Below are positions 1,717-44,619 of a stretch of DNA of 44,619 nucleotides, one piece after another. The position numbers and the translations under genes were made by a program. The DNA lies in the IMG/VR virus record IMGVR_UViG_3300031251_000043, positions 1-44,619 of that record; one strand, written 5' to 3'. Under the pieces are notes generated by a model that saw only the letters and a list, made by a program, of their open reading frames with translations, did not search any database and was not told the DNA's origin. The stretch is from a virus. Position 1 is the first letter of the stretch; each line of letters opens with the position of its first letter.

Positions 1717-2088
1717 ATGCAAATGAGCGCACATTCAGATGACCCTAAAAGTAAGAATTTACTGGATAGGTCGGCAGCTGCACTGAGGGCCATTCGTGAC
1801 CTTGACCCTGAGTTGCCTAGCAGCAAGGTGGCGCTTCTACTGGAAGTCGCGCGTGCTCCAGGGTTAGGCCCAAGTGAGTATGCGCGACGGCTAGGGTCTA
1901 CACAAGCCGTGGTCTCACGCTCCCTTAATGACTTGGGGGAGATCGACCGCAACCGCCAGCCTGGGTTATCCCTGGTGAAAGCTGAGCGGGACGTAATGGA
2001 CCGCAGGCAACTCCACTACTACCTGACGCCTAAGGGCGAGGAGCTACTTGACGAGTATCTTATGCACCTTCGTGGAGGCATATCTTGA
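1717..2088 (+). CDS. MarR-like winged-helix transcriptional regulator
   Basis: A 123-aa protein. Residues about 38-115 show the winged-helix order of MarR-type regulators: a helix (SKVALLLEVARAP), an HTH (SEYARRLGSTQAVVSRSLNDL), a wing containing DRRQLHYYLT, then TPKGEELLDEYL. No ligand-binding extension is seen, and the protein is shorter than typical MarR proteins (about 140-150 aa). AAGGTGG precedes the start. It lies in the same direction as, and two genes before, the integrase, with no lambda cI-like gene elsewhere in the genome. It is therefore the best candidate for a lysis-lysogeny regulator, which is inference. Confidence 0.65.
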   Translation: MQMSAHSDDPKSKNLLDRSAAALRAIRDLDPELPSSKVALLLEVARAPGLGPSEYARRLGSTQAVVSRSLNDLGEIDRNRQPGLSLVKAERDVMDRRQLHYYLTPKGEELLDEYLMHLRGGIS

Positions 2089-2552: not shown

Positions 2553-3698
2553 ATGAGCATCTATGCTGAACGAAACAAGGCCGGTAAACCTACCGGAACA
2601 TGGGTCATCGAGATACGGCGTGAAGGCAAGATAGTTCGTAAGCGGGATAAGGACCTCAAGCGCGCCAGACAGATCGAGGCCGACCTTCGCGCTGGGGTTC
2701 ATGTAGACACTAAGCCTCAGCGCAACAGCCTGTTCACCTTGGCCGATCTATTGGATGGCTCCAGGTCCGTCTACAGGGGCACCAAGGACGAGCGGCAATC
2801 CACACAGCGGCTCGAGGCTTCCCTGGGCCTCCTTGGGCTCTCTGTGGACATACGGACCATTCGGACACAGCAGCTGGATGGGCTTGTGGACACCTTGCGC
2901 TCCCGCTCGCTAGACAACAAGACCATCAACCGACACCTATACGCGGTAAGTGCAGCCTTCAAGTGGGCTCTCGAGCGTGACCTGATTGACCGGCCGCTTA
3001 AAGTCCCTAGGCAACCTGAGAGCGTCGGGCGCATCGCGTTCCTGAGCCTCGAGGATGAGCCTAGGTTCCTGGAGTGGCTTGTGTCTCACAAGTACGAGGA
3101 CGTGGCCTTCGTCTCCAATGTTCTAATAAAGACCGGCTTCCGCATCACTGAGCTACTCGGCCTGCACCACGAGGCGGTCACTCGTGACGGCTGGGTCCAC
3201 CTGTACGAGGGGGAGACCAAGAACGACAAGGGGCGCGCCGCCTACGTTGGGCCTGAGCTTGCCAAGATTATCCAATATCGGCTGGCTTATGGGTGTTGGC
3301 CTGAGTACCATCGTATCCTCAAGGCAATGGGAGAGGCCTCAGAGGCCTTAGGTCTCGATCCGGCTATCACCCCACACGTCCTGCGCCACACGACTGCCAC
3401 CCGCCTCAACAGCGCCAATGTGCCCACAGCTACCATAGCGAAGCTCCTTGGGCACCGCACGCTCGTGACGACACTCAAGTACGCTCACGTCGAGGATAGT
3501 GCCCTCCAGGATGCTGCGGCACACCTCGGGGTCCCACGGAAGGCCTCCCCCGGAGCCGAGGGAAAGCGTGAGGAAGCAAATATTGTACCATTGCGTAACC
3601 CACTGGATTACATGGAGAAACCGCCCGAGGCCGAACAGGTGAAGTGGATTTGCAGTCCTCTGCGTAACCATTCCGCCACGAGGCCTAAGCTTAAGTAA
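2553..3698 (+). CDS. int: Tyrosine-recombinase integrase
   Basis: A 381-aa tyrosine recombinase for site-specific integration into the host chromosome. The catalytic set is visible: Arg in TGFRITELLGL (about residue 196), HVLRHTTATRL (about 273-283), the second His in LLGHRTLVTTL (about 300) and Tyr in KYAHVED (about 309). Residues 1-60 look like the arm-binding domain and 75-150 the core-binding SAM-like domain (INRHLYAVSAAFKWAL). About 55 residues follow the catalytic domain, and their coding DNA contains the tRNA-Cys-like attP candidate. GGGGAGG lies upstream of the ATG. An integrase beside a T7-like RNA polymerase implies a temperate lifestyle. Confidence 0.93.
   Translation: MSIYAERNKAGKPTGTWVIEIRREGKIVRKRDKDLKRARQIEADLRAGVHVDTKPQRNSLFTLADLLDGSRSVYRGTKDERQSTQRLEASLGLLGLSVDIRTIRTQQLDGLVDTLRSRSLDNKTINRHLYAVSAAFKWALERDLIDRPLKVPRQPESVGRIAFLSLEDEPRFLEWLVSHKYEDVAFVSNVLIKTGFRITELLGLHHEAVTRDGWVHLYEGETKNDKGRAAYVGPELAKIIQYRLAYGCWPEYHRILKAMGEASEALGLDPAITPHVLRHTTATRLNSANVPTATIAKLLGHRTLVTTLKYAHVEDSALQDAAAHLGVPRKASPGAEGKREEANIVPLRNPLDYMEKPPEAEQVKWICSPLRNHSATRPKLK
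3646..3685 (-). other. attP: Candidate attP core: 5' half of a tRNA-Cys gene
   Basis: Read on the minus strand, 3685 to 3646 spells positions 1 to about 41 of a tRNA. It has a 7-nt acceptor strand, T8 G9, a D-arm (GCGGAATGGTTACGC) with the invariant GG and A14/A21, A26, and an anticodon arm GAGGA-CTGCAAA-TCC. The anticodon is GCA (Cys) with T33 and A37. After TCC the sequence diverges and no T-arm or 3' acceptor strand follows. tRNA genes are the commonest attB sites of tyrosine integrases, and this segment lies within the int 3' end. I infer that the host attB is a tRNA-Cys gene. Confidence 0.7.
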
Positions 3699-3701
3699 AC
3701 T

Positions 3702-3716
3702 CAGGGTTTTCCCCTG
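3702..3716 (+). other. Small hairpin after int
   Basis: CAGGG-ttttc-CCCTG forms a 5-bp stem just after the int stop codon. There is no T-run after it, so termination would be weak. The right arm overlaps the -10 element of the minus-strand promoter candidate. Confidence 0.3.
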
Positions 3717-3741
3717 TAGCACTAGGTTCAATATGTGTCAA
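3713..3741 (-). promoter_or_regulatory. Minus-strand promoter reading into the tRNA-Cys half
   Basis: On the minus strand TTGACA (3741-3736) and TACAGG (3718-3713) are 17 nt apart, with a TG-n extended -10. Expected initiation is about 20 nt before the first base of the tRNA-Cys half at 3685. No phage gene lies downstream on this strand for a long distance. I infer that the promoter serves the tRNA that would be restored after integration. Confidence 0.5.
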
Positions 3742-3791
3742 TAGGCGCGCAGTGCCGGGGCGACACATTCCAAGTGGCGTGTAGATAATGC

Positions 3792-3849
3792 TTGACAGCC
3801 CGATTAGAATGCCATAAGACATCTAAGATCAACTGGTTATGACATCTAA
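3792..3849 (+). promoter_or_regulatory. Promoter and direct repeats upstream of RNA polymerase
   Basis: TTGACA at 3792-3797 and TAAGAC at 3815-3820 are 17 nt apart. The 9-mer GACATCTAA occurs twice, at 3818-3826 and 3841-3849 (period 23 bp, about two helical turns), around the expected start site. This suggests operator half-sites controlling the RNA polymerase gene. The same 9-mer or close variants occur in several other promoters of this genome. Confidence 0.45.
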
Positions 3850-3887: not shown

Positions 3888-6284
3888 ATGGACTTTAACA
3901 TAGACACAATCAATGCCGAAAGATACGAGAGGTCACATAGTCGGGCAGTTAAGAGTCATGGCTTTGGTCTATCAACCCCAGCCATTGGAATAGCCACCCA
4001 CTATTTTAACCAAGCCGAGGATGTGGTAAAAAGGAAGATGTCTGAGCCAAGAGGACCTGGGATACCCAAGGAGTTCTTTTCTGTGTCACATGAGAAACTG
4101 ACTCTCATTGGCATTCAGGGTATATTAACTTCAGCCATTGGAAAAGATTTGTACCTTAACACCGTGGTGGCCCACCTTGGTAACCTTGCGATGATCGAGG
4201 CGCGCGTTGCCGCGATGCAGGAGTATTCCAAGAGTGGATATAATAAGGCACTGAAGGCTGCTAAAAAGAAGTTTCCAAGGGACCGCAAGAAGCAACTCCG
4301 CTCTCTCAATCAAACCAAGGGTTTCCCTGAGTGGATTCCATGGTCTGTGCCTCAGAGATTTCATGCGGGCGGCTGGATTGTATCGGCTATGTCTGAGACA
4401 CCAATGTTTGTACGTGTTCCTGGTGTGGGTCAGAACAAGCTGAACCGTGAGAGGATTGCCCTCACTGAGGAGGCTCTCAATATAGGCCTATCATGTGTGG
4501 ACAGAGCCATTGCCCGCGATAGTATGTTTGTACCCATCACCAGGGGGCCAGAGCCCTGGGTTAGTGGGAAGCTGAACTTGAATGATACGAGCATGAGGCT
4601 AGTTCGTAGTTATAGTCCGGTGGTAAGGAAGGCTGTTGAAGACACCATCAAAGGCGGAGGTATGCCTAAGGTACTTAGTGCAATAAACTCAGCACAGGAG
4701 GTAGCTTACTCCATTAATAAATTCATACTTGATGTGGTTGAGAGGTGTTATGAGAACAACATCCGAGTCGAGGGGATGCCTCCTAAAGAGAACATTCCGC
4801 TTCCAGAGAAGGAAATAAAATGGGAGGACATGACGCCGGAACAGGTGAAGCTTTGGAAGGCTAGGGCTTCTCTTGTTTACAGAAGCAATGCTTCCTTCAC
4901 AGGACAGCGGATTGGTCTATCACTGGACTTGAGAACAGCAAAGCACCTAGCAGGTAATCCATTTTGGACACCGTTGAATGTGGACTATCGTGGACGTGTG
5001 GTTCCTATACCTAACTTCAACTTTCAAGGTCCTGACTACGTACGCGCCATGTTCCAATTCGAGAAGGGGCAGGAGCTTACGACCGAGGGTCTCTACTGGC
5101 TCAAGGTACATGTGGCTTCAACCGGCGACTTCAAGCTGGCCGATGCCCGGAAGGTTTCTAAGGCCCCATTTGCCGAGCGAGCATCCTGGGTGGATGACAA
5201 TTGGGATGACCTGATGGACTACGCACAGGACCCAATTCAGTACCTAGGGTGGACTGAGGCGGACAACCCATTCATGTTCCTGGCCGGTTGTCGGGCGCTC
5301 CTCGATTGGCGTGATGGGTTTCGATGCCATCTACCGATAGCCTTCGATGGCTCGTGTAGTGGCCTACAGCACCTCTGCGCCATGACGCGGGACCCTAGTG
5401 GCTCCCTGGTAAACTTGACGCCCTCAGAGGACCCCCAGGACATTTATTCAATGGTCGCTACTGAAACCTTACGCCTTGTTCAGGAGGATACCAAGGACCC
5501 GGAGTTGGCCGCAGAGTGGATGGCGGAAGGAATTACTCGGTCCACATCAAAGAGGCAGACCATGACGCTTCCTTATGGTGTTACCAGCCGAGGCGCACGT
5601 AAGCAAAAGCTTAAGGACATAATGCAAAAGATAACCATAGAGGTTCTGGAAGGCAAAAGGGATAAACACCCATTCGCTGACGAATTTCTAGCTGCAAGCT
5701 ACATCACCAATAAGATTGAGGAGGCCCTTAAAGGCATCGTCCAGAAGCCGCTAGATACTATGGATTTCCTAAAGAAGCTCACTAAGGTGACATCCCACGA
5801 ACAGAAGCCACTAAGGTATCACACCCCACTAGGGTTCCCGGTGGTTGTACACTACACCCCTAAGGAATGTGGTCAAATCAAGCTAACCTTATTTGACAAA
5901 GGGGTTAAGCGCCTATTCTACCCTCTTGTACAGCAAGATACTACAGGCATCAACAAATCTAAGACTGAGCGCGCCATAGCACCAAGCTTCGTGCACTCGA
6001 TGGACGCTTGCCACTTGATGATGACTGTTAACGCATGTGCTGAGGAGGGCATAGAACTGGCCTTGGTACACGATAGCTTCTCATGCCTCCCCAATGAGGC
6101 CCCGCGCCTACGCTCGATCCTTGTGGAGCAGTTCTACAAGCTATATTCCGAGAATGATGTACTGGCAAACATTAGGAATGAAGTGATAGCTCAGATGGAC
6201 GACTCATCCAAGGTTCCTCCGGTGCCCACATACGGCACACTGGACCTTAGCTTAATCAAGCAGTCGGAATATGCTTTTTCTTAA
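3888..6284 (+). CDS. T7-like single-subunit DNA-dependent RNA polymerase
   Basis: A 798-aa polymerase expected to transcribe phage genes from its own promoters (T7 gp1 is 883 aa). Conserved blocks with T7 equivalents: DYRGRVVPIP (about 365); AFDGSCSGLQH with catalytic Asp (T7 D537); RSTSKRQTMTLPYG with the K631 and Y639 equivalents (about 550-565); GINKSKTERAIAPSFVHSMD; and LVHDSF with the second catalytic Asp (T7 D812, about 727). The C-terminus ends AFS, like the T7 FAFA foot. AGGAGG precedes the ATG. The N-terminal third is less conserved. It stands immediately after int and its own promoter region. Confidence 0.97.
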   Translation: MDFNIDTINAERYERSHSRAVKSHGFGLSTPAIGIATHYFNQAEDVVKRKMSEPRGPGIPKEFFSVSHEKLTLIGIQGILTSAIGKDLYLNTVVAHLGNLAMIEARVAAMQEYSKSGYNKALKAAKKKFPRDRKKQLRSLNQTKGFPEWIPWSVPQRFHAGGWIVSAMSETPMFVRVPGVGQNKLNRERIALTEEALNIGLSCVDRAIARDSMFVPITRGPEPWVSGKLNLNDTSMRLVRSYSPVVRKAVEDTIKGGGMPKVLSAINSAQEVAYSINKFILDVVERCYENNIRVEGMPPKENIPLPEKEIKWEDMTPEQVKLWKARASLVYRSNASFTGQRIGLSLDLRTAKHLAGNPFWTPLNVDYRGRVVPIPNFNFQGPDYVRAMFQFEKGQELTTEGLYWLKVHVASTGDFKLADARKVSKAPFAERASWVDDNWDDLMDYAQDPIQYLGWTEADNPFMFLAGCRALLDWRDGFRCHLPIAFDGSCSGLQHLCAMTRDPSGSLVNLTPSEDPQDIYSMVATETLRLVQEDTKDPELAAEWMAEGITRSTSKRQTMTLPYGVTSRGARKQKLKDIMQKITIEVLEGKRDKHPFADEFLAASYITNKIEEALKGIVQKPLDTMDFLKKLTKVTSHEQKPLRYHTPLGFPVVVHYTPKECGQIKLTLFDKGVKRLFYPLVQQDTTGINKSKTERAIAPSFVHSMDACHLMMTVNACAEEGIELALVHDSFSCLPNEAPRLRSILVEQFYKLYSENDVLANIRNEVIAQMDDSSKVPPVPTYGTLDLSLIKQSEYAFS

Positions 6285-43045: not shown

Positions 43046-43708
43046 TCAACCAAGCAACAATTGTTTGCGTGAGCTACCGGCTTGCATGTTCAATCCCACG
43101 CCTTGCGCCCATTGCCTATCCGCCACATTTGCGCTTAGGCTTCGCGAGCGTACTGCGCGCAGTTTCATATGCTCACGCATGTATGCGCTTGCCTCGTCTA
43201 GTGGTACAAGACACGCGCCAATGTGTTCTAGTGGCTTACTTTTGTTTAATTCCCTCAAGCGTTCGGCCAGCATCGCGCCCTTGCTCTCGCGTGACACATT
43301 GCGCGCCCTTTCATCTTTGTATTGCTCGCGGCTAGCTTTCATAATGGTATCAATTAGATACTCAAACATAAGTTTGGCCGTCACCCGATTGCTCTCGCGC
43401 CCCACAAGCGTATAGGTGAACTTTGGCGCGCCCCTACGGCTCACATACTGGCAACCGTAATACTTAGCCACTTGCACGCCTAAAGGATGTTTCCAAGCGC
43501 GGCTAGTTCCGCCCTCGTGTATTTCGAGGCCAAGCGGGTCACCATCGCGCGCATTGTTCACGTCGGCCATGCTTATCTGATAGTCGCGCATCAGCTGATC
43601 AGCTTTCGCCATGAATGCGTCACGTTCCGCTTCAAACTCGCTTGAGTTAGCCTTGGCGAGCAAAGCGGCAATCTTCGCGGCCAATGTGTCTTTGTTTTGT
43701 GTGGTCAT
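43046..43708 (-). CDS. DUF2786-family protein
   Basis: A 220-aa protein. Residues 1-50 match DUF2786 (PF10979): TLAAKIAALLAKANSSEFEA with ERDAFMAKADQLMRDYQI. Residues about 75-180 resemble the domain usually following it (KHPLGVQVAKYYGCQYVSRR; TYTLVGRESNRVTAKLMFEY). The biochemical role is unknown; such proteins are common in phages and plasmids. It has a GGAATTGAGACC leader and is the first leftward gene from the divergent control region at 43.75-43.85 kb. Confidence 0.75.
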   Translation of the reverse strand: MTTQNKDTLAAKIAALLAKANSSEFEAERDAFMAKADQLMRDYQISMADVNNARDGDPLGLEIHEGGTSRAWKHPLGVQVAKYYGCQYVSRRGAPKFTYTLVGRESNRVTAKLMFEYLIDTIMKASREQYKDERARNVSRESKGAMLAERLRELNKSKPLEHIGACLVPLDEASAYMREHMKLRAVRSRSLSANVADRQWAQGVGLNMQAGSSRKQLLLG

Positions 43709-43745
43709 GGTCTCAATTCCCTATGTGTCATCATTGACGCTTACT

Positions 43746-43774
43746 AATGTATCCCTAATGGCATCTAATGGCAA
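43746..43774 (-). promoter_or_regulatory. Promoter-like element (TTGCCA, 17 nt, TACATT) for the DUF2786 gene
   Basis: On the minus strand TTGCCA (43774-43769) and TACATT (43751-43746) are 17 nt apart. The spacer contains AGATGCCA, as in the elements at 9766 and 15178, and the TAGG(n)nTACATTAG end is shared with the promoter at 42711. Confidence 0.55.
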
Positions 43775-43820
43775 GTCACGAATTGTTACAAAGATAATTC
43801 CTTTTGTGATTAAATACCGT

Positions 43821-43848
43821 TTGACATCTAATCCCATTGGCGTAAGGT
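43821..43848 (+). promoter_or_regulatory. Sigma-70-like promoter (TTGACA, 16 nt, TAAGGT)
   Basis: TTGACA at 43821-43826 and TAAGGT at 43843-43848 are 16 nt apart. GACATCTAA follows the -35, as upstream of the RNA polymerase gene. It is divergent from the promoter at 43774 and drives the gene at 43877 and probably the gp88-like gene. Confidence 0.55.
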
Positions 43849-43876
43849 GTTCATACCGAAACACGGAGCAATCCAA

Positions 43877-44071
43877 ATGCAAGTCACTAAAGGCAACGAA
43901 ACATACTCCATATTCACTAACGAGGAACACGTTAGGAACGTAGTCGAGCAATTGAAACGCGATGACCCAGACTGGTCATATAATACGGTCGAGAGCAAGG
44001 GGACCATGGGCGGGAAAACGTGGACCATTATGGTTTACGACGAAAACGACAAGTTCTTAGGGTTCCTATAG
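43877..44071 (+). CDS. Hypothetical small protein (64 aa)
   Basis: A 64-aa protein (MQVTKGNETYSIFTNEEHVR; WSYNTVESKGTMGGKTWTIM; ending DENDKFLGFL) with an alternating beta-helix-beta-beta layout. The ATG at 43877 has GGAG 8 nt upstream. A longer in-frame start at 43847 lies in the promoter. It is the first rightward gene after the divergent control region. No family is recognised. Confidence 0.6.
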   Translation: MQVTKGNETYSIFTNEEHVRNVVEQLKRDDPDWSYNTVESKGTMGGKTWTIMVYDENDKFLGFL

Positions 44072-44165
44072 CGCAAGGTGACATCTAGTTAGGCGCATGA
44101 CCACACAAGGGATACGTGCGCCTGCATGGATGCCAAATGGTGTTCAATAGCAAAGGGTTACTAAC

Positions 44166-44619
44166 ATGCAAATAGGTGAAGCAAAGCGCATAACAGGGGG
44201 AGGCTTAGGCAAACCCTCGAAAATGCCAGGGACTAGCTACGGCTTGCCCGCGAAGGCCTGCCATGTGGGAGCTAAGCTTGCGAAGGTCGAGGGGTCAGTT
44301 TGCCATGGGTGCTATGCGCTCAAAGGCAATTACCTATACCCTAGCGTTCAAACGGCTCAGGAACGGCGCTTAGCGTCAATTACTGACCCGCAATGGGTTG
44401 ATGCGATGGTTACGCTCTTGAACCATAGCGGAACCGGCTGGCACCGCTGGCACGATAGCGGCGATTTGCAATCGGTTGATCATTTGCTTGCTATAAGCGA
44501 CATTTGCCGCGCTACGCCGCATATTCAACACTGGCTTCCTACGCGGGAAATTATGATTGTTAAGGCTTGCGTTGCGCGCTTAGCGGCGTTCGGCCGGGAA
44601 CTGCCTAGCAATTTATGTG
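44166..44619 (+). CDS. Gp88-like Cys-rich phage protein, N-terminal part (continues at 1..312)
   Basis: Starts at ATG 44166 with AAAGGG upstream. The translation is read directly across the circle join: GEAKRITGGGLGKPSKMPGT, SYGLPAKACHVGAKLAKVEG, SVCHGCYALKGNYLYPSVQT, then a helical region with WHRWHDSGDLQSVDHL. The order K-M-P-G-TSY-LPA-C, CxxCYALKG and W-HDSGD resembles the Gene product 88 (Gp88) family known from actinophages and other phages. The full product is 212 aa with Cys clusters at both ends, suggesting a metal-binding enzyme. Activity is unknown. Confidence 0.65.
   Translation, partial: MQIGEAKRITGGGLGKPSKMPGTSYGLPAKACHVGAKLAKVEGSVCHGCYALKGNYLYPSVQTAQERRLASITDPQWVDAMVTLLNHSGTGWHRWHDSGDLQSVDHLLAISDICRATPHIQHWLPTREIMIVKACVARLAAFGRELPSNLC
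44493..44619. repeat. Terminal direct repeat (contig-end overlap), right copy
   Basis: Identical to bases 1-127. See the left copy: it marks circular closure of the assembly and should be counted once when the genome length or gene list is used. Confidence 0.9.

Follow-up and report, generated by a model that had tools for sequence, protein, structure and literature searches.

A tRNA-Cys 5' half at the end of the integrase gene

When a phage carries the 5' half of a host tRNA gene at its attachment site, from which DNA would the tRNA be expressed once the phage has integrated? The question is raised by the uncultured virus record IMGVR_UViG_3300031251_000043, analyzed here over all of its 44,619 nucleotides (positions 1 to 44,619, hereafter the window), in which a 5' segment of a tRNA-Cys gene lies antisense in the end of a tyrosine integrase gene (int). 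An initial annotation, made from the sequence alone, had proposed this segment as a candidate phage attachment site (attP) covering tRNA nt 1-41; its place, strand and identity stand, but it extends over exactly nt 1-40.

3646..3685, minus strand: predicted attP core with sharp borders, identical (40/40) to nt 1-40 of tRNA-Cys(GCA) genes called by ARAGORN
2553..3698, plus strand: tyrosine integrase gene int, whose C-terminal codons run through the attP core (PF00589, 5.8e-18; phrog_1 integrase, 1.2e-43)

The core 40-mer was recovered with 40/40 identity in 59 genome contigs, nearly all from Hyphomicrobiales and including the genera Kaistia, Mesorhizobium, Bartonella, Nitratireductor and Hoeflea, which surpasses the identity of at least 35 nt to a host tRNA-Cys that had been proposed as a check. 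ARAGORN called a tRNA-Cys(GCA) at the position of the 40-mer in every locus among the matches listed. Identity between phage and host broke off abruptly at both ends: at the border formed by tRNA nt 1 it continued for 0 or 1 extra matching base, and past nt 40, just beyond the anticodon arm, for 0 extra bases in 59/59 contigs. As in other elements that use a 5' half for attachment, the identity spans the gene from its anticodon region to its 5' end (nt 1-40 only), and none of the other 12-mers of the core occurs elsewhere in the window. The core is antisense to int, overlaps the int 3' end and lies 202 bp before a gene for a T7-like single-subunit RNA polymerase (RNAP). ARAGORN found no complete tRNA gene in the window, so the phage lacks the complete tRNA that characterizes tRNA-dependent lysogeny.

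The window holds what an attP is expected to hold, an adjoining tyrosine integrase gene and an exact host tRNA fragment that rebuilds the gene. In simulated integration, the junction of the phage 5' side with the host 3' side gave a complete tRNA-Cys, the reciprocal junction gave no tRNA, and with the host chosen for this simulation the C-terminal KLK of int was replaced by SR. The core region (allowing up to 3 mismatches) was present in at most one copy per genome in 398 Hyphomicrobiales genomes, and the tRNA-Cys target thus looks single-copy. We consider it very likely that the segment is the attP core of an integrating phage with a T7-like RNAP that recombines with the anticodon loop of a Hyphomicrobiales tRNA-Cys gene, and the exact core suggests a host for this uncultured phage.

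In the model that we propose, int would recombine the attP core with the anticodon loop of the host gene and, because the identity spans from that loop to the gene 5' end, the phage-borne 5' half would be joined to the host 3' half. Phage DNA would precede the rebuilt tRNA-Cys, placed at the RNAP end of the prophage, and the host promoter would be left driving just a 5' half, antisense into int. The rebuilt tRNA would then be expressed from phage DNA, possibly from a promoter-like site at 3742-3714. As regards the window phage itself, we infer that it integrates, which host it uses, where crossover takes place and that the rebuilt tRNA is expressed from phage sequence.

A relative in apparently integrated form

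The record IMGVR_UViG_3300047160_001694 (G793; 44,560 bp) is syntenic with the window and homologous to it for much of its length, with identities of 62% for TerL, 60% for primase, 49% for polymerase, 50-55% for portal, 35% for int and 36% for RNAP. At its start a complete tRNA-Cys (98-27, minus strand) is followed by phage DNA and by RNAP at 850. At its end, int (43345-44352) is followed by a second, exact copy of 38 bp from the tRNA 5' half. Next come about 60 bp of a bacterial tRNA-Cys upstream region, as judged by alignment to the corresponding DNA of G911, G832 and G889, in which the tRNA-Cys gene is uninterrupted. Judged by this arrangement, G793 is in integrated form, and its complete tRNA has phage DNA upstream, as the initial annotation had predicted. 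The relative thus supplies the integrated topology that had been expected of prophages ending in the tRNA-Cys anticodon arm, and with the sharp borders and simulated junctions it upholds the proposal of an attP carrying a tRNA 5' half. As to the further proposal, that a phage promoter drives the intact tRNA, no host-like promoter was found upstream of the complete tRNA in G793 (best site p 0.54). This absence weighs against our model, as do the left flank of G793, which is just 26 bp long and unassigned, the lack of an encoded CCA in its tRNA-Cys, and a search of 398 Hyphomicrobiales and 385 Alphaproteobacteria genomes that returned no double-core lysogens of the window phage. Matches to T7-like RNAP in Hyphomicrobiales genomes showed no tRNA-Cys junction.

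Integration might be transient only, occurring during lytic infection, in which case expression of the rebuilt tRNA would hardly matter. T7-like cyanophages carry the first half of a tRNA-Leu gene and integrate during infection, as detected by PCR, with no stable lysogeny found (PMC8776855), and no lysogen of the window phage was found in the sampled genomes mentioned above. Yet G793 appears as an assembled integrated form, and the exactness of the tRNA half all the way to nt 1 points to selection for a rebuilt tRNA that works; we regard transient integration alone as rather unlikely. Phages can also pick up tRNA fragments, and the segment could be a remnant of gene capture with no role in attachment. 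Its place after int, its sharp borders and the conservation of the layout in other phages argue against such a remnant, and the integrated G793, which has this half at either end, contradicts it, so we reject this explanation as extremely improbable.

Relatives that carry the opposite half

Two close relatives, L192 and L193 (primase 63%), carry between int and RNAP 44 bp corresponding to tRNA-Cys nt 31-74, the 3' half. With the opposite half at the same attP position, they suggest that the lineage switches tRNA halves. L183 has a 3' half that, by reading of its sequence, belongs to tRNA-Phe. The cores of the window, G793 and L192 have one segment in common, and from the core extents the crossover likely falls within it (nt 31-38).

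L192 4433-4476 and L193 4169-4212: tRNA-Cys 3' half at the attP position
3648..3655, minus strand: anticodon-loop segment (tRNA nt 31-38), the sole part common to the window, G793 and L192 cores

Promoter or integrase arm-type sites

Upstream of the tRNA half, the initial annotation had reported a promoter with an extended -10, TTGACA-N17-TACAGG, pointing into it from 3741. The string is there (TTGACA at 3741-3736, 17 nt, TACAGG at 3718-3713, with TG before TACAGG), but support for a promoter there is weak and depends on the model applied, with p ~0.02 in one and 0.30 in another, and G793 has no comparable site.

3714..3742, minus strand: promoter-like site ATTGAC-N17-CTACAG, a candidate pointing into the tRNA half (12.0 bits, p ~0.02; p 0.30 in the other model)
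3725..3743, minus strand: tandem repeats TATTGACAC / TATTGAACC, 10 bp apart, candidate arm-type sites for Int (the pattern was picked post hoc)
3581..3589, plus strand: TATTGTACC, the arm-like repeat in inverted form, lying to the int side of the core

The first promoter model was built from 33 tRNA-Cys upstream regions dominated by Bartonella, and under it the candidate was not significant. The second comprised 65 de-replicated tRNA upstream regions without Bartonella; here the candidate was the best site upstream of the core, its score set against a native lower quartile of 12.3 bits, and 25 bootstrap resamples gave p values of 0.005-0.14. Because this model was built after the result of the first had been seen, its p of about 0.02 carries a model choice. 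The candidate was not listed in a generic sigma-70 scan, and TTGAC with TGnTA at about that spacing, again a pattern chosen after the fact, occurs 2 times in the window, both on the minus strand. The 3'-half relatives had no such promoter-like site (p 0.57-0.65).

The TTGACA at 3741 might instead belong to arm-type sites bound by Int, with no promoter there and with the rebuilt tRNA expressed from another phage start or by read-through. The -35 of the candidate falls within the tandem TATTGACAC / TATTGAACC repeats, which have their inverted counterpart TATTGTACC across the core. On both sides of the G793 core stands an inverted repeat of 15 bp, CCGCTAAGTCATTGA, and its copy on the RNAP side continues into TTGACAC. 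L183, which as the carrier of a 3' half needs no promoter, has TTGACACATGTTGA on the same side. The repeats of the window and the inverted repeat of G793 look like Int arm sites, and the absence of a promoter-like site in G793 fits the same view. On the other hand, the -10 of the window site fits, its 17-nt distance from the -35 is the native one and the score lies within the native range, and promoter and arm sites may overlap. An arm-site role without a promoter seems plausible to us, at somewhat below an even chance. Because G793 has no such site and the -35 lies within arm-like repeats, a promoter at 3742-3714 is possible and not firmer than that; whether it expresses the rebuilt tRNA we judge to be about an even call. 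If the lineage does switch its attP half (5' in the window and G793, 3' in L192) and the promoter of the 5' form overlaps arm sites, integrase binding and tRNA expression could be coupled, an idea that we hold to be improbable. G793 and the opposite-half sister phages offer a natural comparison of what a phage must have, promoter or arm sites, for a tRNA that is normally single-copy to stay functional.

Clearer promoters were found in other elements. In the 5'-half element Yong-M2-251 the promoter is CTTGAC-N17-CTATTG (p 0.0003). In the integrated element L151 it is CTTGCG-N17-CTAAAC, which precedes the complete tRNA, stands next to a copy of the host leader and scored higher than every background window. 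Since both carry clear promoters, we conclude from these sequences that bringing along a tRNA-Cys promoter is a strategy that elements in Alphaproteobacteria really use; for the window phage it is still a candidate. L151 (1-10315) is a 10-kb element in which both promoter and leader of the complete tRNA-Cys copy those of the host.

The 5'-half layout in other phages and elements

A tRNA-Cys 5' half with the orientation seen in the window was present in eleven phage records, 9 from pelagiphages and 2 labelled Synechococcus. The pelagiphages examined had the order MarR-int-half-RNAP, and in the 2 Synechococcus-labelled phages the half followed int. The window has the same Pelagivirus-type module, MarR-int-attP-RNAP with the tRNA-Cys 5' half antisense. 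Viral contigs with the half pattern were found by a degenerate pattern, and 33 of the 62 had a pelagiphage-like int beside the 5' half; L155, whose genes are unlike a phage's, and L157 were set aside as ambiguous. In the viral contigs there was no exact 43-bp core, and direct int or portal searches of them returned no relatives.

The pelagiphages HTVC022P, HTVC131P and their relatives share the gene order and the antisense half with the window, and integration of HTVC022P at tRNA-Cys has been reported (PMC12753301, citing Zhao 2019). The window phage differs from them in its exact Hyphomicrobiales core, in a core that overlaps int instead of following it, and in its large minus-strand part. 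The T7-like cyanophages P-SSP7 and S-TIP37 likewise carry the first half of a tRNA gene and have been seen to integrate by PCR, but the gene is tRNA-Leu, the hosts are cyanobacterial and no stable lysogeny was found. According to a review (PMC8371274), loss of the promoter from a rebuilt bacterial tRNA gene is a very rare exception, and the 5' half is the one used by archaeal integrases of the pTN3 type. The attB of the archaeal plasmid pTN3 is a tRNA-Leu 5' half with 41 bp shared, and the rebuilt tRNA is parted from its original promoter (PMC5495485, PMC8371274), as predicted here; unlike the window, however, pTN3 disrupts its integrase gene on integration, and the tRNA that it rebuilds is reportedly transcribed from the promoter of the integrase. 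In tRNA-dependent lysogeny of actinobacteriophages, a phage-borne promoter of Fionnbharth secures the supply of the tRNA hit by integration (PMC10865867). In securing the targeted tRNA Fionnbharth resembles what is proposed for the window phage, but it carries a complete tRNA gene and does not rebuild that of the host. Among all elements that integrate at tRNA genes the 5'-half layout is rare, but it has precedents, and to call it an unusual solution, as the initial annotation did, overstated the case given the cyanophages, pelagiphages and pTN3. The window phage adds a Hyphomicrobiales tRNA-Cys site to this rare class, whose members replace the promoter side of a host tRNA gene with their own DNA.

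Several further elements bear on the same site. The attP of Yong-M2-251 and Ssp-JY39 (L002 4001-4041 and L077 2501-2541) matches alphaproteobacterial tRNA-Cys, is 97.6% identical to that of the window and has a host-like promoter; the Synechococcus host label of these two phages may be wrong. L152 (436-10550), bounded by a 5' half and a complete tRNA-Cys, spans 10 kb and encodes capsid, portal and AAA ATPase, with a weak match to integrase; it is an integrated satellite-like element using the 5' half. The phage-like contigs L159 (4500-4580) and L078 (14661-14749) have int, a same-sense complete tRNA (Cys or Leu) and then T7-like RNAP, and are perhaps phages that carry a whole tRNA at the att position.

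Neighboring genes and genome layout

The genes on either side of int and its attP core complete the module.

1717..2088, plus strand: MarR-like regulator gene upstream of int (phrog_9665 transcriptional regulator, 1.6e-21; MarR_2 below cut-off)
3791..3818, plus strand: CTTGAC-N16-CATAAG, the highest-scoring plus-strand site of the window under the first host promoter model (16.6 bits)
3888..6284, plus strand: T7-like single-subunit RNA polymerase gene (PF00940, 8e-88; about 30% identity to T7-like phages)

The site at 3791..3818 is probably the early promoter of RNAP. Between 18064 and 43708, most large open reading frames, those for portal, terminase and tail fibre among them, are encoded on the minus strand. 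RNAP and the replication genes are on the other strand, and in this opposition the window differs from T7.
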